DNA of 58,210 nt from a virus. The position numbers and the translations under genes are program-made. Of the stretch, positions 31,880-42,445 are shown piece after piece. The DNA lies in IMG/VR virus record IMGVR_UViG_3300007735_000763, positions 1 to 58,210 of that record. One strand, written 5' to 3'. The stretch's first letter is position 1; each line of letters opens with the position of its first letter. Below the pieces are notes generated by a model. That model had not been told where the DNA came from, ran no database searches, and saw only the letters and a program-made list of their open reading frames with translations.

Positions 31880-32095
31880 ATGTTGCACGTTGAATCCACC
31901 GTCCCCCTGCCAGACGACCGTCCCCGGTTGAAGTACCCCTTTGACGATATGCAGGTGGGGGATAGCTTCCTGATTACCGAGGCAGGCATGGTCAAGAACG
32001 CCCGTTCGGCGGCCTGGATGTACTCCAAGCGTCATGGGATGAAATTCTCCTGTCGGAAGGTGGACGGCGGCTGGCGCGTCTGGAGGACGGCGTGA
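31880..32095 (+). CDS. Small conserved phage protein (VGDSF...RVWR family)
   Basis: 71 residues: YPFDDMQVGDSFLITEAGM, a short helix with SAAWMYSKRHGMKFSCRKV, and GGWRVWRTA at the end. This compact alpha/beta pattern recurs in many phages and plasmid-like elements, possibly DUF7303 (from memory). It starts the packaging operon just after the putative origin, from a promoter that would make a leaderless mRNA, and overlaps the small terminase gene by 4 bases. Confidence 0.65.
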   Translation: MLHVESTVPLPDDRPRLKYPFDDMQVGDSFLITEAGMVKNARSAAWMYSKRHGMKFSCRKVDGGWRVWRTA

Positions 32096-32787
32096 GCGGC
32101 AAGAAGGAAGACGCCTTCATGGCCAAGGTCGGCCGTGGGATTCCCAAGACGACCCTCGACAAGATCAACCAGCCCGTCCCAGCAAGGAGCGGGAACGGCA
32201 CTAAGTCCAAGAGGCGTGACCAACCGTTGACGACGCAAGAGTGGAAGTTCGTCAACGAGTTCGTCGCTGGGGACGGCCATGTCACCGCCAAGGAGGCAGC
32301 CCTGCGGGCGGGCTACCCTGAGAAGAAGATCAAGTACTACGCCGAAACGCTGACCAACCCAGACATGAATCCGCATATCGTGGCGGAGATCCAGAAGCTG
32401 CGGGCGGAGTTCGCCGAAAAGTACGGCACAACCTACGAGCGGCACATGAGGGACTTGCAGCTCATCCGCGACCAGGCCCTGGCTGCGGGAGCCTACGGCG
32501 CCGCCGTCCAGGCTGAGTACCGTCGAGGGCAGGCCCTGGGAACGATCTACATCGACCGCAAGGAGATCCGCCACGGCACGATCGACTCCATGAGCAAGGA
32601 GGAGGTCATGCGCAAGCTCGAGGAGATTAAGAAACTGTACGGTGCGGGAGGCGGCCCGATCATTGACATAACACCGCGACAGGTCGAGGAAAGCCTGACG
32701 GAGGAAAAAGATGCCAGCGAAGCCCGAGACGAACCTGTACAACAGGCTGAAGGACAACCTATCAGGCTGCCTTATTACCCGGATTGA
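32092..32787 (+). CDS. terS: Terminase small subunit
   Basis: 231 residues from a GTG overlapping the preceding stop. Residues about 46-95 match the Terminase_2 helix-turn-helix: LTTQEWKFVNEFVAGDG, AKEAALRAGYPEKKIKYYA, LTNPDMNPHIVAEIQKL. A helical oligomerization region and an acidic tail follow. It would recognise packaging sites on phage DNA and feed the large subunit, which is unusually far away here (5.6 kb, beyond an accessory cassette). The 3' end overlaps the nuclease gene by 77 bases. Confidence 0.85.
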   Translation: MSGKKEDAFMAKVGRGIPKTTLDKINQPVPARSGNGTKSKRRDQPLTTQEWKFVNEFVAGDGHVTAKEAALRAGYPEKKIKYYAETLTNPDMNPHIVAEIQKLRAEFAEKYGTTYERHMRDLQLIRDQALAAGAYGAAVQAEYRRGQALGTIYIDRKEIRHGTIDSMSKEEVMRKLEEIKKLYGAGGGPIIDITPRQVEESLTEEKDASEARDEPVQQAEGQPIRLPYYPD

Positions 32788-33127
32788 GTCGCGGGTAAAC
32801 CTCGGCATCCCAGACTGCTTCTTGGCGTTCCGTAACGGCGAGTTCATCCCACTTGAGCTGAAGGTCGTCAAGCACGGACGCAAGGTGCGTCTGTCCCCGC
32901 ATCAGGTCGCGTATCACTTGCGGCACGCACAGAACGGCAACCGCACTTTTATTTTGGTTGAATACAAACCGCCGCGAACGATCAAGGAAGATCCACGTCT
33001 GATGCTCTTTCGTGGTTCGCAGGCGATGGAGCTCTTGCAGTCGGGCATCGACACAACCCCGGTCATCTCCTGGCACGCCCAGGCGGTGATGTGGCGAATT
33101 TTAGAAATGGAGCTTGAACAGGCGTAG
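32711..33127 (+). CDS. VRR-NUC-like PD-(D/E)XK nuclease
   Basis: 138 residues. LGIPDCFLAFRNGEFIPLELKVVK holds the active site (G32, P34, D35; E49-x-K51), followed by LSPHQVAYHLRHA (Q65), as in VRR-NUC nucleases that cut structured DNA. It overlaps terS by 77 bases, so the two are co-translated, suggesting a role in resolving branches before packaging. The start ATG has GGAGGAAAA upstream inside terS. Confidence 0.8.
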   Translation: MPAKPETNLYNRLKDNLSGCLITRIESRVNLGIPDCFLAFRNGEFIPLELKVVKHGRKVRLSPHQVAYHLRHAQNGNRTFILVEYKPPRTIKEDPRLMLFRGSQAMELLQSGIDTTPVISWHAQAVMWRILEMELEQA

Positions 33128-33832: not shown

Positions 33833-34930
33833 ATGACTACCTTGAGTCAAGCCTCACAACAATGGGCAAGCCGCCCGCCAGAGGAACGATTCACTAGCCT
33901 TCCCGCCATGCGGGAAGCCCTCGAAGTCCTGCGCGCGAACTCTCGCGCGACGGTTGTCTCGTCTCGTCAGTTGTCTGCGGTGCCGACCGACGACAATCGC
34001 GGGCTGCTGATCGAGGGGCCGACTGGTCACGCCACGACGCCGACTAACTGGTCGTTTGGGCAGCTCGCGAATCTCTCGGGGGCTCCTGCTCATTACCTGC
34101 GAACACTCCCGGCGCCCCTGGCTGCGGATTGTTTGAACTATGGGCTAAAGGTCGAGCGCGATGCGACCGATACGGGCGTTCTGCTTACTCGGCGCGGGGG
34201 CGACGTCATCGAGTTACGCGCTGCAACGGGGCCGCGCTACGGGCGAATTTGGAATGACGAAGTAGTGCGCGCGCTCGAGGATCGTTTCGGCGATGGTGTC
34301 TCGGGAGACTTTCGGGTCCCTGGTATCTTTGGACAGTCGCTCGACCAGGTGACGATCGGGAACACGACGTTATTTGCAGGCGATCGCGATATGTTCGTTT
34401 TCCTCGCCGACGAAAAGAATCGTATCGAGCTGCCGAATCGGCGCGACGGGAAAACAGGCGAGCTCGCTCGCGGGTTCTTCGTCACTAATTCGGAGACGGG
34501 AGCAGGCGCGCTCAAAATTAAGACGTTCCTGTTCGACTATGTTTGCGCGAATCGGATCGTCTGGGGCGCGCATGAGCTCGGGGAGATTTCGATTCGACAT
34601 ACGGCATCCGCTCCCGATCGGTTCCTCGAGGAAGCCGTGCCCGCGCTGCTTGACTACTCGCAGGCTTCCGCCTCGACGGTCTCGAATGTCTTGAAGCGAG
34701 CGCAGGAAGCGAAGCTCTCGAAGGTCGACCAGTTTCTCGCGTCGCGTTTCGGGCCGCGCGTCGCGGATCGGATCAAGGTCGTACATCAGCAGGAAGAAAA
34801 CCGACCGATCGAGACGGTCTGGGATGCCGTGACAGGCGCGACTGCTTACGCGCGCTCGATCCCGTGGACGGATTCGCGGGTCGAGTTCGAAGAGCTCGCA
34901 GGGGATATGCTCGAAGCTGCGGCGGCTTAA
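33833..34930 (+). CDS. DUF932 (phage/plasmid-like) protein
   Basis: 365 residues, ATG after CGAGAAAGGAGAAAGTTAAA. The DUF932 core is clear: FGQLANLSGAPAHYLRTLP, then GDRDMFVFLADEKNRIELP, then ARGFFVTNSETGAGALKIK and FLFDYVCANRIVWGAHEL, with a helical C-terminus. The family is widespread on phages and plasmids and has no known biochemistry. It is a single-gene unit, with a terminator right after it, followed by the amidoligase/amidotransferase pair. Its DNA belongs to the atypical-word region of 33.8-38.1 kb. Confidence 0.8.
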   Translation: MTTLSQASQQWASRPPEERFTSLPAMREALEVLRANSRATVVSSRQLSAVPTDDNRGLLIEGPTGHATTPTNWSFGQLANLSGAPAHYLRTLPAPLAADCLNYGLKVERDATDTGVLLTRRGGDVIELRAATGPRYGRIWNDEVVRALEDRFGDGVSGDFRVPGIFGQSLDQVTIGNTTLFAGDRDMFVFLADEKNRIELPNRRDGKTGELARGFFVTNSETGAGALKIKTFLFDYVCANRIVWGAHELGEISIRHTASAPDRFLEEAVPALLDYSQASASTVSNVLKRAQEAKLSKVDQFLASRFGPRVADRIKVVHQQEENRPIETVWDAVTGATAYARSIPWTDSRVEFEELAGDMLEAAAA

Positions 34931-34950
34931 CCTGTCCAGGTGCTAATCGA

Positions 34951-34985
34951 AAAGGCCAGGGGCGATCCCTGGCTTTTTCTTTTTT
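34951..34985 (+). terminator. Terminator after the DUF932 gene
   Basis: GCCAGGG (34955-34961), 5-base loop, CCCTGGC (34967-34973), extended by A/T pairs and followed by TTTTTCTTTTTT. It isolates DUF932 from the next unit. Confidence 0.9.
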
Positions 34986-34993
34986 GCAGGGAG

Positions 34994-35021
34994 TTGCAGC
35001 GGGTCGCGGTTCTGTTAGTAT
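34994..35021 (+). promoter_or_regulatory. Candidate promoter of the amidoligase operon
   Basis: TTGCAG (34994-34999), 16-base spacer, TAGTAT (35016-35021). Downstream the leader has a 6-bp hairpin, CGGGGC / GCCCCG with loop ATCCC (35028-35044), then AAAGAGGG before ATG 35071. Confidence 0.45.
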
Positions 35022-35070
35022 CGGCGGCGGGGCATCCCGCCCCGTAGAAAGTTAGAAAGAGGGAAACACA

Positions 35071-36522
35071 ATGTCGAATATTTTCGAGTTGCCATTCCTG
35101 GCGAGATCGGTAGCTGATTTGCAGCGCGCGGATCGTCTCGCGAATCGGATCGTCGATTGTCTCGCGTCTCTCCAGGATGCGGACGACGATCGCGGTTATC
35201 TCCAGGCCGTTCGATTCTTTGGTCGTATGGTTCGAGCGTCGCTCGATCCCGAGCGCAGCGAGACCTCGCGCCCTTCCGACCTGGCGTTCGTCCAGGACGT
35301 GCTCGAGCGCGCGACCACTCGCGGGTTTTATGCTCCTGCGTTCGCCTACTCGTTTTCGCGAAAGTTGGCATTGGGCCAGGTTGTACGTCGGGTAAACGTC
35401 CAGGATCTAGTCGAGAGTCATTTCGAGAGTGCCGAGGGATCGGATCGGAACGCGATCATCGAGTTATGCGGCGAGCACCACTCGATCATGTTCTGCAATC
35501 ATTGCGACGAGCTGTTCGCCGACCAGGATCTTCAGCGGCGATACGGCGGCGGGTGGGTCTGCTCGAGCTGCCGTGAGGACGTCTTCCAATTCTCCGAGCG
35601 TTATGACGCCTGGGTGCATGATGACTGTGTTCGGGCGGCGCTCGATGAGGACGGAGATCGATGCATCATCGACGAGGACGATTCCGAGTTTCATTTCGAC
35701 GAGGAGCTCGACCAGTATGTGCATGATGATTACGAGCCGCCCTCGAGGTCAGTAATTCGGAACTACCATTCCTCGAAGCCGTTCTTTTCTGTCCGTCGCG
35801 ATACCTGGGTCGAGCAGCATCGGCGCGCCCTGGGAGTGGAGCTCGAGGTCGAGGGGTACTCCATCGATCCCGTCATCGCTGCGCGCGCGATCCACGATCA
35901 CGTCAACGGCGGCGAGTTCGGTCGTAATCTGTTCTTCGAGCGCGACGGCAGTTTGTCCAACGGGTTCGAGTTGATCTCGCAGCCTATGAGCGTGCCGGCG
36001 TTGCGCGAGACGTTCCAGTTCTTGCGTCAGCCTTCCCTGGTTCGAGGTCTCCGCAGTCATCGCACGACGACGTGCGGCCTCCATGTTCACGTCACCAGGG
36101 CGGGGCTCTCGAACCTCACGATCGCCAGGGCGGTGACGTTCGTAAACGATTCGGGGAATGATGCCTTCATCCAGGCATTGGCTCGACGTTACAACACGGG
36201 TTTCTGCAACATCCGAGATAAGGAGCTCGAGACCGCTCACCTGCCAGGGGATCGATACGAGGCGATCAATCTCACGGGGAGCGAGACGATCGAGTTCCGA
36301 ATCTTTCGCGGTTCGCTCAAGTATGAGGCCGTGATTGCTGCGATCGAGTTTTGTCATGCCCTGCTTGACTACTGCGCGCGACCGGAGACGGCGGCGGGGG
36401 GCTTGAATGCTCAAGCGTTTATTCGTTGGTGCGCGAACCATTTGGCCGACGAGACGGCGATCCTGCGGTCGTATGTGAACGATCGCATGGCAGGCCTGTT
36501 CCAACATTCTGAAGCGGCCTAA
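35071..36522 (+). CDS. Amidoligase (COOH-NH2 ligase) with zinc-finger insert
   Basis: 483 residues. The C-terminal half is an amidoligase of the glutamine-synthetase-like fold: GVELEVEG (255-262), FFERDGSLSNGFELIS, GLHVHVT (336-342) and INLTGSETIEFRIFRG (399-414) supply the acidic and His residues for ATP-Mg. The N-terminal half is helical, then has a zinc-binding segment (C142xxC145, C164xxC167, H183 and C186) and acidic patches. It would form an amide or isopeptide bond on an unknown carboxylate. The amidotransferase 21 bases downstream is the likely ammonia source. Confidence 0.8.
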   Translation: MSNIFELPFLARSVADLQRADRLANRIVDCLASLQDADDDRGYLQAVRFFGRMVRASLDPERSETSRPSDLAFVQDVLERATTRGFYAPAFAYSFSRKLALGQVVRRVNVQDLVESHFESAEGSDRNAIIELCGEHHSIMFCNHCDELFADQDLQRRYGGGWVCSSCREDVFQFSERYDAWVHDDCVRAALDEDGDRCIIDEDDSEFHFDEELDQYVHDDYEPPSRSVIRNYHSSKPFFSVRRDTWVEQHRRALGVELEVEGYSIDPVIAARAIHDHVNGGEFGRNLFFERDGSLSNGFELISQPMSVPALRETFQFLRQPSLVRGLRSHRTTTCGLHVHVTRAGLSNLTIARAVTFVNDSGNDAFIQALARRYNTGFCNIRDKELETAHLPGDRYEAINLTGSETIEFRIFRGSLKYEAVIAAIEFCHALLDYCARPETAAGGLNAQAFIRWCANHLADETAILRSYVNDRMAGLFQHSEAA

Positions 36523-36543
36523 CAGGGCCAGGGAGTTCTGACT

Positions 36544-37506
36544 ATGTGTCTATTAGTTCATCAGCCCTCGAGCACGTCATTCTCGAATGATTTTCTCGCG
36601 GATGTTTACTCGAGCAATCGCGACGGCATCGGCGCGATGTATGCCCTGGGCGGTCAGCTGCACGTCGTCAAGGCGTTGCCGAAGAATGCCGACGAGTTCA
36701 TCGAGTTCTATCGGCAGCACGTCGAGGGGCGCGAGTCGATCTGGCACGCGCGGATGCAGACTCACGGCGACATCGATCTCGAGAATTGTCATCCGTACCA
36801 GGTGACGGCTCGAGTTGCCCTGGCTCATAACGGGATTCTGTCGACGGGTAACTCCTGGGACAAGGCGCGCTCGGACACTTGGCATTTCATCCGAAATATT
36901 GTTCGACCAGCTGTCGCGAGCGACGAGGCGATCGTGCTCGATCCTTCCTGGCAGTCGTTCCTGGGCGACCTGATTGGCGCCTCGAATAAGTTCGGCATGA
37001 TGACGGCCGACGGCCAGGCGGTGATCATCAATCGCTCGAGCGGCGTCCAATACTCGGGCGCCTGGTTGTCGAACACTTACGCCTGGAGCGCGCACAAGTT
37101 CGGCGTCGGATCGGTTGCGACCAGGTACACGGGCGCGCGCATCTGGTCGGGTTATGACTGGGATGATTACGCGCTCGAGCCTGTGATCGCGAAAGGCTCG
37201 AAGTCGTCCAGGGGCTCGAAGTCCCTGGGCGGGGATTCCCTGGCGAGGATCACCAGGGCGGCGCGCAATTCCTACATTCGCGGGACGTTGGCTCAATGGG
37301 TCGAGGACGCACCAGGGAAGGCGGCGATCCTGGTCAATGCCATCGAGGACGATCCGACGGGCGAATGCGGCGAGCTCGCCTGGGACGACCCAGAGCTCGT
37401 CGTCGATGCCCTGGCTAAATGGTTCGAGCTCGAGGGGTTAGAGCCTGGGCATGCGGCGAGTCGTGTCGAGGATGATCCCTGGGCGCGCTACGGGTTCCAG
37501 GACTAG
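36544..37506 (+). CDS. Class II glutamine amidotransferase (Ntn hydrolase)
   Basis: 320 residues. The nucleophile is Cys2, exposed after Met removal. NRDGIG (25-30), HARMQTHGD (68-76) and LAHNGIL (93-99) complete the glutaminase site with Arg70, His74, Asn96 and Gly97. About 150 further residues include a basic/Ser-rich linker (KGSKSSRGSKSLGG). No synthase domain is attached, so ammonia must go to a partner, most simply the amidoligase of the same operon. Terminator directly downstream. Confidence 0.85.
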   Translation: MCLLVHQPSSTSFSNDFLADVYSSNRDGIGAMYALGGQLHVVKALPKNADEFIEFYRQHVEGRESIWHARMQTHGDIDLENCHPYQVTARVALAHNGILSTGNSWDKARSDTWHFIRNIVRPAVASDEAIVLDPSWQSFLGDLIGASNKFGMMTADGQAVIINRSSGVQYSGAWLSNTYAWSAHKFGVGSVATRYTGARIWSGYDWDDYALEPVIAKGSKSSRGSKSLGGDSLARITRAARNSYIRGTLAQWVEDAPGKAAILVNAIEDDPTGECGELAWDDPELVVDALAKWFELEGLEPGHAASRVEDDPWARYGFQD

Positions 37507-37535
37507 TCCTCGAGCAGGTCATCCAGGCGACCAGG

Positions 37536-37563
37536 AAAGGGCCCTTCGGGGCCCTTTCTTTTT
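37536..37563 (+). terminator. Terminator after the amidoligase/amidotransferase operon
   Basis: AAAGGGCCC (37536-37544), TTCG tetraloop, GGGCCCTTT (37549-37557), then CTTTTT. A perfect 9-bp stem 30 bases after the stop codon. Confidence 0.95.
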
Positions 37564-37599
37564 GCCTGGTGAGGGCTCGCCTGGGGCGCCCTGGGCGGT

Positions 37600-38135
37600 C
37601 TCGCTCGAGGGGCAGTTGTCCAGGTGGTATCCGATCGCTCGAGCTCGGGCGATCGCTCGAGGTTCCCTGGTCGATCGTCTTTCCTGGGTTGTCCAGGTTG
37701 CTCGAGTTCGGGCGCTGCCTGGCTCGAGGGCCTCGATCGATCTCCCTGGATACGTTGCTCGATGTATGTGATCCGCGATCCTCGATCCTGGTCTCTTGCG
37801 TCGTGAGCTCCAGGCGCGCGCGTGCCTTGTTTCGTAGGTCGAGCGCGGTGTCGAATGGGCATTTCTTTGATCCGTGATCCTCGATCCTGGTCGCGTTGTT
37901 CGTGATCCAGGCGGCGCGATCTGCTCGCCTGGATCGGCGATCGGCTGGTCGTGTATGTCATTCCGTCGGCGTGTATGTCATTCCGCTGGCGATCGGATCG
38001 GCTCGAGGTCGGCGATCGGCGGCGATCGGATCGGTGCGACCAGTCGGATCGGCTCGGCGATCGGCTCGGCGATCGGTCTGGATCGGCTCGGCGATCGGCT
38101 CGAGGGTCGCGGATCGCGGGCCTCGGTGGGGATTT
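37600..38135. repeat. Repeat-rich noncoding region (CGATCG/CTCGAG/CCTGG words)
   Basis: The interval 37564-38349 has no supported gene. Its first part is built from short recurring words: GGCGATCGGCTC-type units repeat about five times in 38047-38105, and CTCGAG and CCTGG are scattered across 37600-37760. Two imperfect copies of a block with GATCCTCGATCCTGGTC begin near 37768 and 37868, about 100 bases apart. Long open frames here encode only Arg/Ser/Asp-rich repeats and are probably artefacts. It may be the tail end of the acquired cassette, a packaging or recombination site, or a noncoding RNA. Confidence 0.6.
37951..37990. repeat. 20-bp tandem repeat, two copies
   Basis: GTGTATGTCATTCCGTCGGC (37951-37970) is followed by the same 20 bases with two changes (CT for TC, 37971-37990). 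It lies inside the repeat-rich region. Confidence 0.8.
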
Positions 38136-38194
38136 CTTTGGTAATTCTTTGACGTACACCGGAGAATTCTTTGAGGGCGGCGGGCCAAAAAAAT

Positions 38195-38265
38195 GGCCGG
38201 TTGTGTAAAGGCAAGGGCTAATGCCCGATTTCACACATTGGATTTCTGGCCAAAGAGAACCGGCC
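38195..38265. promoter_or_regulatory. Nested hairpin upstream of the large terminase
   Basis: Three levels of inverted repeats share one centre region. GGGC/GCCC with TAAT loop (38215-38226) sits inside TGTGTAAA/TTTCACACA with one bulge (38202-38237). Outside are GGCCGGTT (38195-38202) and AACCGGCC (38258-38265). Strong secondary structure without a U tract suggests a control or packaging site. Confidence 0.5.
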
Positions 38266-38315
38266 CAGGGGGAAGGAAAAAGTGCCCCCTTTGATTAACT
38301 TGTCAACTCGTGTAA

Positions 38316-38349: not shown

Positions 38350-39813
38350 ATGAGCGCAGTTCCCCAAGACGTGGAGGCCGAACGGCTACGGCTGGAATAC
38401 CGGCTAATGCTTCTGGAAACCCAGGACAAGGCCCGGACCAACTTCATCGACTTTGTGCGGTACGTTTGGCCCGAGGCGATCCTGGGCGATCACCATCGGC
38501 GCATGGGGGCGGCCTTCGATCGGATCGCCAAGGGCAATCTGAAGCGGCTAATCATCAACATGCCGCCCCGTCATACAAAGTCCGAGTTTGCGTCCTACCT
38601 GTTGCCGGCCTTCCTGATGGGGCGCAAACCCCGTTTGCAGACGATCGAAGCGACGCACACAGCGGAACTGGCCGTTAAATTCGGCCGTAAAGTCCGCGAC
38701 CTGATGATGTCGGACCGTTATCGGGAGCTCTTTCCCCAGGTAGACCTGAAGCAGGACAGCAAGGCCGCCGGCCGGTGGGACACGAACCATGGCGGTAGCT
38801 ACTTCGCTGTCGGTGTGGGCGGTGCGGTCACCGGACGCGGTGCCGATTTGCTGATCATCGACGATCCGCATTCGGAGCAGGATGCGTATTCGGACCTTGC
38901 CTTGGACAACGCATGGGATTGGTATCAGGGCGGTCCGCGAACCCGTCTCCAGCCAGGAGGAGCCATTGTCATCGTCATGACCCGTTGGGGCACCAAAGAC
39001 CTGACGGCGCGCCTGCTTAAGGCGCAATCCAGTCACAACGCGGATAAGTGGGAGGTCATCGAGTTCCCGGCAATCCTGCCATCAGGCAATCCGCTTTGGC
39101 CGGAGTTCTGGTCCCTTGACGAACTAGAGGGGGTCAAGTCTTCGCTGTCGGTGCAGAAGTGGAACGCGATGTATCAGCAGCAGCCGACGAACGATGAGGG
39201 TGCAATCCTCAAGCGTGAGTGGTGGAAAGTCTGGCCTGAACCGCAGCCCCCGATCGTGAACTACATCATCCAAAGCTACGACACGGCGTATAGCAAAAAG
39301 GAAACTGCCGACTATAGCGTGATCACGACCTGGGGCGTGTTTTATCCTGGCGAAGACAGTGGGCCGAACATCATCCTGCTTGATGTCCTGCGTGGTCGGT
39401 GGGACTTTCCTGAACTAAAGCGAATTGCGAAGGAAGAGTACAACCGCTGGAACCCTGACAATGTGCTGATCGAGGCCAAGGCCACGGGCGTGACGTTGCA
39501 ACAAGAACTTCGTCGCGTCGGCATCCCCGTCACCATGTACACCCCTGGCGGACGCCGATCGGGCACCGATAAGGTCAGTCGCGCGAACGCGGTCGCCCCT
39601 GTGTTCGAGGCGGGGATGGTCTGGGCCCCGGACACCGATTGGGCGGAAGAGCTGATCGAGGAGTGCGCAGCGTTCCCGAACGGCGACAACGACGACATGG
39701 TGGACTCGACGACGCAGGCCATCATGCGTTTCCGTCAGGGCAACTTCATCAACCTTCAAACGGATTACAAGGAGATGCCGTCGGGAAGATCGCTTGCCCC
39801 TGAATACTATTGA
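38350..39813 (+). CDS. terL: Terminase large subunit
   Basis: 487 residues from ATG 38350; a TTG 30 bases upstream is in frame but lies in the palindrome. ATPase: MPPRHTKSE (Walker A variant, K77), TGRGADLLIIDDPHSE (Walker B, D171/D172), VIVMTRWG coupling motif. Nuclease: QSYDTAYSKKETADYS (D311) and an acidic NGDNDDMVDS near the C-terminus. It packages DNA through the portal. The start has only a weak ribosome site. The order terL, structural genes, portal is conserved, but terS is 5.6 kb upstream. Confidence 0.95.
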   Translation: MSAVPQDVEAERLRLEYRLMLLETQDKARTNFIDFVRYVWPEAILGDHHRRMGAAFDRIAKGNLKRLIINMPPRHTKSEFASYLLPAFLMGRKPRLQTIEATHTAELAVKFGRKVRDLMMSDRYRELFPQVDLKQDSKAAGRWDTNHGGSYFAVGVGGAVTGRGADLLIIDDPHSEQDAYSDLALDNAWDWYQGGPRTRLQPGGAIVIVMTRWGTKDLTARLLKAQSSHNADKWEVIEFPAILPSGNPLWPEFWSLDELEGVKSSLSVQKWNAMYQQQPTNDEGAILKREWWKVWPEPQPPIVNYIIQSYDTAYSKKETADYSVITTWGVFYPGEDSGPNIILLDVLRGRWDFPELKRIAKEEYNRWNPDNVLIEAKATGVTLQQELRRVGIPVTMYTPGGRRSGTDKVSRANAVAPVFEAGMVWAPDTDWAEELIEECAAFPNGDNDDMVDSTTQAIMRFRQGNFINLQTDYKEMPSGRSLAPEYY

Positions 39814-39853: not shown

Positions 39854-42445
39854 ATGGCAAGACGGGGCGACGAATTTGACGGAATGGACTCCGCGCAGGA
39901 GTTCACGGACGACACGTCTGCGGCGGATATGCTCTCGCAGTATTTTGGCAGAGTGCCTGAAGATACGCCCGCCGCTCCAGAAAACACGACTGCGCTTGAG
40001 CAATTGCAAGCGCTTGTGCAGATGGAGGAGCAGCGTCGTGCGGCCGAGGCGCAAGCGACACGGCCCATGGACCAGCCACAGCCTGCTGTCGACACCACGA
40101 TGCCCACAGGCGAATCAGTGCCTGTTGCGCCACAACCTGCTGCATCAAACCTTCCCCCTGGCGTCACCCAAGCAGATCTGGATGCGATTGCAGCAAGCTT
40201 TCGTGATGCGGGCTATGGTCCGAACAATAATATTTTAGGTCAGGGAATCAACCTCTCGGGGGTTGGTCTTGGCGGTAGCTACATGCCTGGCGGTCCGGCG
40301 CAGACGCCGACGCCCACGATCAATTTTACGGGCGATCCGAACCAGCCGTACTTTGACATGCGCACGCCGACAGGCGGCGTAGATCCCAAGTATTTTGTGC
40401 CGGGGCTTACGAGTCCTTCTGTCAACACCGTGGGCCCAACGGACCGTGGCGTTCCTCAGCGCCGGGAAAACGAATGCCCGCCGGGGCTGGAGTACAGTTA
40501 CGAGCTTGGCCGTTGCGTGCGCCCGGAGACTATCGAGCCACCGCCACCTCCACCCCCACCGCCTCCCCCCCCTCCTCCACCCCCGCCGCCACCGCCTCCT
40601 CCCCCGCCGATCAAGTGCGATCCGGGGTATATCTACAATCCTGAGACGCGGCAGTGCGAGAAGGAGATTGTTACTCCTCCGCCTCCTCCGAAGGATTGCC
40701 CGCCAGGACTTGTGAGAGACCCGGCGTCTGGGCTGTGCGTGCCACCGCCTCCTCCCCCGCCGCCTCCGCCTCCCCCGCCGCCTCCGCCACCACCTGGTGA
40801 CGACTGTCTACCGGGCAATCGGCGTGATCCGGTGACGGGCAAGTGCATGCCTATTTGTGGGCCTGGATCCGTATACGATCCGGCGACGGGCAAGTGCGTG
40901 CCTATAACTCCACCGCCCCCGCCTCCACCCCCGCCACCGCCTCCCACGGAGTGCCAGCCGGGATATGAACGCAACGCAGCAGGGCAGTGTGTGCCGATCC
41001 GTCTTGACCCCTGTCAGCCGGGCTATGTACGCAGCACGGTAACGGGTAAGTGTGAGCCAATCACCATAACGCCCCCGCCTCCGCCGCCCCCACCGCCCCC
41101 CGGACCGACACAGCCGCCTACCCCGCCTCCGGGCGTAATCCAGCCGTTCGATCCGTCGGCCGCGATGCTTGCGGCGTACAGGAGGATGTTCGGCACGGGA
41201 GCCGTGAACCTTGGGCGGTCGGACGCGACTGGTGGTGGCACGCCCACGTCCCCGTTGGTCAGCACCACAGGGGTTGGAGCGCCCACTCCGGGCACTGGGA
41301 CTGCGAGGTCTCCTGTTCCGTTGCCGGGGTTCCAGAACGTGACGTTCACGCCTGGCCAGCCGCAATTCTTTGGGAATGTCCCAGGAGCCATGCTCCCCGG
41401 CACGTTGCCCTCAAACTACAACCCGATTAGCAATTACAAGGGACCGTTAGCCACGGACGTTTTGGCGCAGAACCCGAACCTGAGTCCGACGATTCTCGGC
41501 GGCTTGCAGGGGCTGGGGTATTACACGGATCGTTTGGGCAATCGGATCTTTGCGCCGGGCGGGGCCTTTGCAAATCCTGTCAGGGCCTTTGCCGATGGCG
41601 GTGAGGCGGACAAAGACGAAGCATCGGCAACGTCCGCACAAGCCGAACTTCGTGCGCTGCTTGACGCCATGCCTGCTGAGACGGAGACGGAGGTGTCGGT
41701 CTCCCCGACCTCTCGCTCTGTTCGTAAGACAAAGAAAAAGGCTGTGGACACGGGCAAGGCCAAGGGCATCTCCATGAGCCTTGAAGAGTCGATGGCGAGC
41801 ATTGAGCCGCCAAGCCGCGCCTCGGCCCGTGATCAGTTAGCCGCGCTCATGCGACGCAATCGCGGTCTTGTGGCGAAGACGTTCAGTACGCCGACGCTCG
41901 ATCGTGCAAGCCTCGCGGCTCGCGGACCACTGACCACGAAGCGATTCCAGGATGGCGGTGAGGTGGACGACAGCACCCCGTTGCAGCGTCGTATCTACAT
42001 GGAATCCGTCAGCGATCCTGCCAAGCGCACTGCGCCGATCACTGAGAAAAGCATGTCGGCCAAGGAGCTGGATAAACTTCGGACGTTGATTGAGATCGCC
42101 GAAGCCAATCCTTCTCTTAGCGAAAAGACAGGCAAGCCCTTGCCTGGCGTTGTCGACTACGCGCATCAGCGGATGTTGATGGAGAAGGTAGACCCGATGG
42201 GCAGCCTTCCGATCTCCATGCGCGATTCGGATTACAACGCGTTGGAGTCGGGCAATCTGCGTAACACGCTCGGGCAGTTTACGTTTGAGCGATTGCCGGA
42301 TGGATCGTTGGTCGTGAAGGACACGTACGATTACACCGGAGACGTAGGCGCCAGGTTTAATCCGTTGATTCAATACGCGAATAAGGTCGGTGTGAATCGT
42401 CCAGTCAGGATCGCACTGCCGCCCAAGAGCACGAAGAAGAGGTAG
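39854..42445 (+). CDS. Virion protein with polyproline rods and repeated Cys modules
   Basis: 863 residues. Acidic N-terminus; Gly/Pro-rich region; then residues about 206-404 alternate runs of up to about 27 prolines with six or seven small modules of the form C-x-P-G-x(4-6)-P-x-T-G-x-C-x-P (ECPPGLEY...GRC, KCDPGYIY...RQC, DCPPGLVR...GLC, and so on). A Pro/Gly spacer and a C-terminal domain with SLPISMRDSDYNALESGNL, LGQFTFERL and VRIALPP follow; I recall that last domain from other phage virion proteins. It could be an extended head or tail fibre. Confidence 0.55.
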   Translation: MARRGDEFDGMDSAQEFTDDTSAADMLSQYFGRVPEDTPAAPENTTALEQLQALVQMEEQRRAAEAQATRPMDQPQPAVDTTMPTGESVPVAPQPAASNLPPGVTQADLDAIAASFRDAGYGPNNNILGQGINLSGVGLGGSYMPGGPAQTPTPTINFTGDPNQPYFDMRTPTGGVDPKYFVPGLTSPSVNTVGPTDRGVPQRRENECPPGLEYSYELGRCVRPETIEPPPPPPPPPPPPPPPPPPPPPPPPIKCDPGYIYNPETRQCEKEIVTPPPPPKDCPPGLVRDPASGLCVPPPPPPPPPPPPPPPPPPGDDCLPGNRRDPVTGKCMPICGPGSVYDPATGKCVPITPPPPPPPPPPPPTECQPGYERNAAGQCVPIRLDPCQPGYVRSTVTGKCEPITITPPPPPPPPPPGPTQPPTPPPGVIQPFDPSAAMLAAYRRMFGTGAVNLGRSDATGGGTPTSPLVSTTGVGAPTPGTGTARSPVPLPGFQNVTFTPGQPQFFGNVPGAMLPGTLPSNYNPISNYKGPLATDVLAQNPNLSPTILGGLQGLGYYTDRLGNRIFAPGGAFANPVRAFADGGEADKDEASATSAQAELRALLDAMPAETETEVSVSPTSRSVRKTKKKAVDTGKAKGISMSLEESMASIEPPSRASARDQLAALMRRNRGLVAKTFSTPTLDRASLAARGPLTTKRFQDGGEVDDSTPLQRRIYMESVSDPAKRTAPITEKSMSAKELDKLRTLIEIAEANPSLSEKTGKPLPGVVDYAHQRMLMEKVDPMGSLPISMRDSDYNALESGNLRNTLGQFTFERLPDGSLVVKDTYDYTGDVGARFNPLIQYANKVGVNRPVRIALPPKSTKKR

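Follow-up and report, generated by a model that had tools for sequence, protein, structure and literature searches.

Phage genomes have long been known to contain amidoligase and glutamine amidotransferase (GATase) genes, whose job has only been guessed at. Closest to the locus described here are the gp108/gp109 type genes of the Marvinvirus phages Marvin and MosMoris, in which an Amidoligase_2 ligase precedes a glutaminase, the adjacent amidoligase and GATase genes of the Methylophilales (OM43) phages MEP401/402, and the clusters of LUZ24/tf and StenR_269 type phages, in which an amidoligase and a class II GATase lie close together. The MEP401/402 genes are reported as auxiliary genes in PMC10580990. 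Here we describe a variant of these known genes in the IMG/VR virus record IMGVR_UViG_3300007735_000763, the whole of which (58,210 bases) was analyzed and is referred to as the window. The variant consists of an amidoligase of 483 amino acids with a predicted zinc ribbon (positions 35071..36522, plus strand; assigned by PF12224 Amidoligase_2, AlphaFold and Foldseek), followed by a class II glutaminase (amidotransferase) of 320 amino acids with Cys2 as the nucleophile (36544..37506, plus strand; assigned by the GATase_4 profile, AlphaFold and Foldseek).

The Marvinvirus pair shares with that of the window its gene order, the N-terminal CxxC zinc knuckles of the ligase and a class II glutaminase starting with MC, but identity is only ~26-30%, and the Marvinvirus glutaminase ends in a Cys-rich zinc-ribbon-like tail where that of the window has a helical domain. 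The Marvinvirus records annotate these genes as "glutamine amidotransferase domain", whereby the ligase gene is mislabeled. In MEP401/402 the order and the families are those of the window, while identity is ~30% and the aligned sequences diverge in the zinc part. Clusters of the LUZ24/tf and StenR_269 type contain ATP-grasp, GGCT and COOH-NH2 ligase genes in addition, whereas the window has two genes only, and neither GGCT nor ATP-grasp was found beside the ligase among the window proteins scanned. The small GATase of StenR_269 aligns with the window glutaminase at 99% probability, and its ligase shows remote similarity to the window ligase over the catalytic core only. No text on the zinc-ribbon two-gene form, or on the mycobacterial plasmids that carry the pair, the tandem pairs of Nocardia and the Polynucleobacter elements with SIR2-HerA neighbors described below, was found in the literature covered, which did not include Iyer et al. 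2009 or the Marvin paper.

The ligase and the glutaminase constitute one obligate, co-inherited module. Searching viral contigs with the glutaminase alone returned 59 loci; in 58 of these the ligase immediately precedes it on the same strand, while the single exception begins at base 2 of its contig. A search with the ligase alignment revealed the same pairing, the glutaminase being missing only in loci cut by contig ends. Order and strand are kept, the gap between the genes is mostly 3-53 base pairs (bp), and the same pair is found in Marvinvirus, the OM43 phages and MW202733. Protein distances of the two partners are correlated (r = 0.84, 67 loci), and the correlation persists after accounting for TerL (partial r = 0.74, 32 loci with TerL; Mantel test, 0 of 1000). 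Among 70 loci with distinct ligases, any third gene recurs in at most 15. An earlier note on this DNA had named the lack of a conserved neighborhood in related phages as speaking against its reading of the locus; for the ligase and the glutaminase, that neighborhood is conserved. Both genes, and the DUF932 gene upstream of them, are under purifying selection, with ratios of nonsynonymous to synonymous substitution rates versus relatives of 0.15-0.35 for the ligase, 0.17-0.24 for the glutaminase and 0.06-0.17 for DUF932.

The ligase matches PF12224 Amidoligase_2 with an E-value of 6e-8 (33.2 bits versus a cut-off of 22), and so do all 37 ligase relatives (E 0.01 or better). Its AlphaFold model (mean predicted local distance difference test score, pLDDT, 87.6) finds glutamine synthetase (GS, 9e-6), Dop/PafA and YbdK as the best Foldseek matches in the PDB, with E-values from 9e-6 to 2e-3; comparison of the sequence itself with solved structures gave no significant match, only weak zinc-finger matches. 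The GS-like catalytic core spans residues 254-436 (35830..36378, plus strand) and carries the motifs GVELEVE, DGSLSNGFE, CGLHVHV and TIEFRIF, the third of which is, in our comparison, similar to the GMHxH motif of glutamine synthetase. Ten residues (E257, E259, D292, E300, H338, H340, R395, N400, E408 and R410) are invariant in 37/37 sequences, bearing out the ligand residues around 255-414 proposed in the earlier note. Seven of them (E257, E259, E300, H338, H340, E408 and R410) answer to the conserved acidic and His residues for metal and ATP of the superfamily. At modest template modeling scores (TM-scores), the E-values, motifs and topology of the model together place the ligase in the glutamine synthetase superfamily with GS, Dop/PafA and YbdK.

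The glutaminase of the window falls just under the GATase_4 cut-off (E 1.7e-4), yet 32 of the 33 members of its family match this profile, with a best E-value of 4e-8. Its AlphaFold model (pLDDT 76.9) shows the alpha-beta-beta-alpha fold of N-terminal nucleophile (Ntn) hydrolases and retrieves GlmS first in Foldseek (1.5e-5), followed by EgtC and PurF. The HxRxxTHG...NxHP...HNG motif aligns to GlmS in its Arg-to-Gly part, and the class II glutamine-binding set R70, T73, H74, N96, G97 and D111 is present. Cys2, directly after Met, is invariant in all aligned glutaminases, and Arg70, His74 and Asn96, which the earlier note had listed with it, are likewise invariant or nearly so in 33 homologues, as are His68, Thr73, Gly97 and Asp111. 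The coupling of a GS-fold ligase to a stand-alone class II glutaminase thus holds for both folds and for both active sites, which are intact; models lacking the GS-like fold or the Ntn active site, the outcome held to contradict that coupling, were not obtained. Residues 233-296 form a helical C-terminal domain (37240..37431, plus strand; AlphaFold helices) with conserved W252, P257 and K259, in place of which actinobacterial glutaminases have the Cys-rich zinc-ribbon-like tail. Two further glutaminases, of 552-582 amino acids (locus L167, 4960-6615, and locus L168, 5293-7038), have a long tail of low-complexity QEQ/AEQ repeats as well as an additional segment at the C terminus.

N-terminal to its core, the ligase contains the zinc-ribbon cysteines C142-x2-C145 ... 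C164-x2-C167 (35494..35571, plus strand), present in 36-38 of 38 sequences. At least two CxxC knuckles occur in the ligases of 68 of the 70 paired loci, and one knuckle in the remaining two. Knuckles and glutaminase are found together in 25/25 Nocardia ligases, in two mycobacterial plasmids and in Marvinvirus, while ligase relatives lacking knuckles (from the C. difficile lineage and its elements and from a Microcoleus phage) have no adjoining glutaminase. A wider search for unpaired phage ligase relatives returned loci from the C. difficile lineage only, and two scans were empty. Nocardia ligases have 7-11 CxxC each, and as the array expands and varies next to an unchanging catalytic core, the zinc part may serve in target recognition or binding. 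The earlier note had suggested such a target-binding part, a proposal strengthened by the spread of the knuckles and their expansion in Nocardia.

On balance, the pair probably forms a two-subunit enzyme that uses glutamine for amidation and would convert a carboxylate to a primary amide. The glutaminase would free ammonia from glutamine via its N-terminal Cys2, the GS-fold ligase, using ATP and metal ions, would activate a carboxylate, and the ammonia, transferred between the subunits, would attack the activated carboxylate to give the primary amide. Supply of ammonia is the best explanation for the association because the dedicated glutaminase never leaves the GS-fold ligase. The N-terminal zinc ribbon and the beta-rich segment following it are predicted to select or dock the target, which would more likely be a macromolecule than a free metabolite; a host cell wall, a host protein or a component of a competitor are candidates. 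Several observations weigh against this proposal. TM-scores are low for both proteins (about 0.3 for the ligase and 0.35-0.39 for the glutaminase), so that both fold assignments rest on E-values, motifs and topology. Zinc binding by the ligase is predicted from its cysteines only, and the unpaired relatives compared with it come from two lineages only. No fusion of the two genes occurs among the loci searched, and we found no biochemical data for any member of the family. Lastly, some proteins resembling class II glutaminases, such as EgtC, are gamma-glutamyl hydrolases.

The last point leads to a different chemistry, in which the ligase couples an amine to glutamate or a different amino acid, which its partner, an amidohydrolase, removes again, the two acting as writer and eraser of a gamma-glutamyl mark. 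Such pairs of ligase and hydrolase are known in EgtA with EgtC and PuuA with PuuD, and EgtA, which works with EgtC in the ergothioneine pathway, is itself a GS-superfamily ligase, so that EgtA/EgtC resembles the window pair in combining this superfamily with a partner of class II GATase fold. The fold of the window ligase is also that of gamma-glutamyl ligases (YbdK match), EgtC is second only to GlmS among the matches of the glutaminase, and larger phage amidoligase clusters also have GGCT, which cleaves gamma-glutamyl amides (UFV-P2, PMC3890496). However, GlmS-type glutaminases are the best matches in both sequence and fold, all residues binding free glutamine are retained, and no GGCT goes with the pair, as no neighboring gene recurs in over 15 of the 70 paired loci. 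EgtC differs further in being a hydrolase of a metabolite pathway, and EgtA/EgtC lacks a zinc ribbon and is not a module of mobile elements. We regard a gamma-glutamyl writer and eraser as unlikely.

Two narrower versions of the amidating enzyme differ in the target, and the likelihood that we give to each overlaps with that of the general proposal. In the first, the pair would amidate a carboxylate of peptidoglycan and so block superinfecting phages or their lysins. AsnB/LtsA is known for glutamine-dependent peptidoglycan amidation, and MurT/GatD combines a Mur-ligase fold with a class I glutaminase, unlike the window pair, which has a GS fold, a class II Ntn glutaminase and a zinc ribbon and is not MurT/GatD-like in these respects. 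MurT/GatD nevertheless provides a precedent for glutamine-dependent peptidoglycan amidation by an ATP-dependent ligase and a glutaminase as two subunits that make an amide (PMC3267633). For the amidoligase/GATase genes of phages, the published suggestion is a change of the cell wall that acts against superinfection (Iyer et al. 2009, cited in PMC10580990). Conversely, enzymes with a lipid-linked precursor as substrate do not usually carry a zinc ribbon, still less several in an array, and the wall types of the carriers (Betaproteobacteria, Mycobacterium and Nocardia) are very different. In our judgment the zinc arrays are more easily reconciled with a protein target than with a cell wall, and amidation of peptidoglycan seems a doubtful specialization of the enzyme.

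The second version draws on the distribution of the pair, which in every placed occurrence belongs to a phage, a plasmid, an integrative element or an island whose neighbors resemble those of mobile elements. Mycobacterial plasmids carry the pair, and in Polynucleobacter it is present in 3 of 186 genomes (loci L222, L223 and L224), on integrative elements and beside an integrase. SIR2 and HerA-type genes follow it in two of the three, with a relaxase gene next after them in one fully typed element, while the third has an uncharacterized gene of ~415 amino acids. In the Nocardia family group the glutaminase occurs in 17 of 401 genomes, mostly as two copies separated by ~2.1 kb, while N. jiangxiensis has three. 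Wherever the region was read, every copy had a ligase of its own; tandem pairs were located at L225 (2330-8816) and L272-L281. Their conserved neighbors include DprA-like, ParB_N-like, DUF4192 and SSB genes, and two genomes have a tyrosine integrase at a distance of a few kb upstream. The ligases of the first copies group as a separate clade with support of 100/99, and the duplication therefore predates the Nocardia species sampled, the copies having been kept apart over species.

This company suggests that the amidating enzyme may be a weapon or shield of mobile elements, modifying a competitor's or a host-defense protein that the zinc part recognizes. The confinement to mobile or mobile-like contexts, the position between an integrase and SIR2-HerA defense genes in Polynucleobacter, and the tandem Nocardia pairs with their diversified zinc arrays beside ParB-like, SSB and DprA-like genes, with the integrase upstream in two genomes, are consistent with this idea. 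On the other hand, the defense neighbors belong to one Polynucleobacter element lineage only, the third element having the uncharacterized gene in their place, gene company is not function, and PADLOC has no model for the pair, its scan yielding no match for the ligase or DUF932 and a marginal one for the glutaminase (0.002, CARF model). We hold this version only tentatively, if slightly more readily than amidation of the cell wall. PafA/Dop, the enzymes of pupylation, share the superfamily fold of the ligase and act on protein carboxylates, but TM-scores to them are low and no Pup-like protein or link to a proteasome was seen near the pair. If the pair amidates proteins, it would constitute a mobile-element protein modification system distinct from pupylation and ADP-ribosylation. 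The tandem Nocardia pairs and their long zinc arrays suggest that the module serves several targets, and one might speculate, at rather long odds, that an expandable zinc-ribbon array directs a glutamine-fueled GS-fold ligase to chosen targets in hosts or competing elements, either proteins or nucleic-acid-bound, with one pair per phage or integrative element and two or three diversified tandem pairs in Nocardia islands, each for a different target. The reduction of the question to two inseparable genes, a zinc targeting part and mutable residues makes it testable.

The three genes DUF932, ligase and glutaminase lie at the positions given in the earlier note, between TerS/nuclease (32092-33127) and TerL (38350-39813). 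The DUF932 protein (365 amino acids; 33833..34930, plus strand) matches PF06067 (E 9e-8, above cut-off) and phrog_1362 (4e-46), and in the earlier note it was a partner of the pair, the three genes working jointly as one cassette. We compared 39 loci of the same phage group that span the interval from the nuclease to TerL, a sample drawn by search, with a few contigs fetched twice, whose counts are not population rates. In this slot DUF932 occurs without the pair in 22 loci, all three genes occur in 14, and the pair occurs without DUF932 in three, so that no regular co-occurrence of the three is seen; other phage lineages likewise carry the pair without DUF932. Against relatives lacking the pair (L077, L079, L081, L087, L075 and L093), blastn homology ends at ~34871-34916, at the end of DUF932, and returns at 38175-38274, just before TerL, indicating that the pair is an inserted cassette (34931..38175, unstranded) with near-absence of a counterpart in those relatives; short matching stretches within it are 37950-37985 in L079 and L093 and 37869-37985 in L075. 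The pair would thus be carried as an accessory cassette, or "moron", between DUF932 and TerL. In phage DSL-LC04, which is closest to the window by terminase and portal (79% and 75%), the same interval holds an unrelated gene of 349 amino acids.

Joint action of the three genes can appeal to DUF932 standing immediately 5' of the ligase in 12 of the 70 distinct loci and near the pair, in other order, in three more. Those 15 are, however, the only such loci, most paired loci being without DUF932; the two occur independently in both directions within the same slot, a strong terminator separates DUF932 from the ligase, and the boundary of the insertion falls between them. On the strength of independent occurrence and the empty site we reject DUF932 as a third partner; it is a resident neighbor outside the ligase-glutaminase module, and the three-gene cassette, already largely refuted, is highly improbable. 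A DUF932 homologue of Erythrobacter phage ZS04 (L239, 4992-6128; 51% to the window protein) is annotated "integrase".

As to the phage itself, DSL-LC04 comes from Dishui Lake with Gammaproteobacteria as the listed host, and the next-closest phages by terminase and portal include HTVC027P and HTVC023P of Pelagibacter. On the 3' side of TerL, the window encodes a protein of 863 amino acids (39854-42445) with long proline runs and no PHROG match.

The earlier note had described two promoter-gene-terminator units, and both terminators were found: one after DUF932 (34949-34979, plus strand; terminator scan, 14-bp stem and T run, z-score -4.54) and one after the glutaminase (37533-37563, start approximate, plus strand; z-score -4.59), each folding far more strongly than shuffled sequence. 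The promoters, by contrast, did not appear in a sigma-70 scan, which was negative also at the candidate promoter of the pair (34994..35021, plus strand), TTGCAG-16-TAGTAT with a TG before the -10. In most aligned relatives, a TG-nTAGTAT/TATGAT-like extended -10, followed by a leader and a ribosome-binding site, is kept 5' of the ligase, and a promoter belonging to the pair is plausible from this alignment. An upstream motif, GTTNAGTATCSG, was considered as a phage promoter and set aside, its frequency being not above chance.

Across the pair and the non-coding stretch 3' of it (34937-38150), CCWGG is in excess at 17.4 per kb versus 3.1 elsewhere, and CTCGAG at 6.2 versus 0.7; as a mark of the module this enrichment was rejected, being confined to the window and, more weakly, its nearest relatives L009 and L010 and not the rule in other paired loci. 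Before TerL, the stretch 37567-38150 is a long run in which GATCGG, CTCGAG and GGCGATCG recur as short, imperfect repeats. Open reading frames on both of its strands are probably spurious, and one on the minus strand (37503-38234), which recurs in relatives as cluster 7, was judged a by-product of repetitive, biased DNA. Within the stretch, at 37950-37989, two 20-bp direct copies around CGTGTATGTCATTCCG are possibly a binding site before TerL, and TGTATGTCATTCC occurs twice also in L079, L083, L084 and L093, all of which have DUF932 without the pair.

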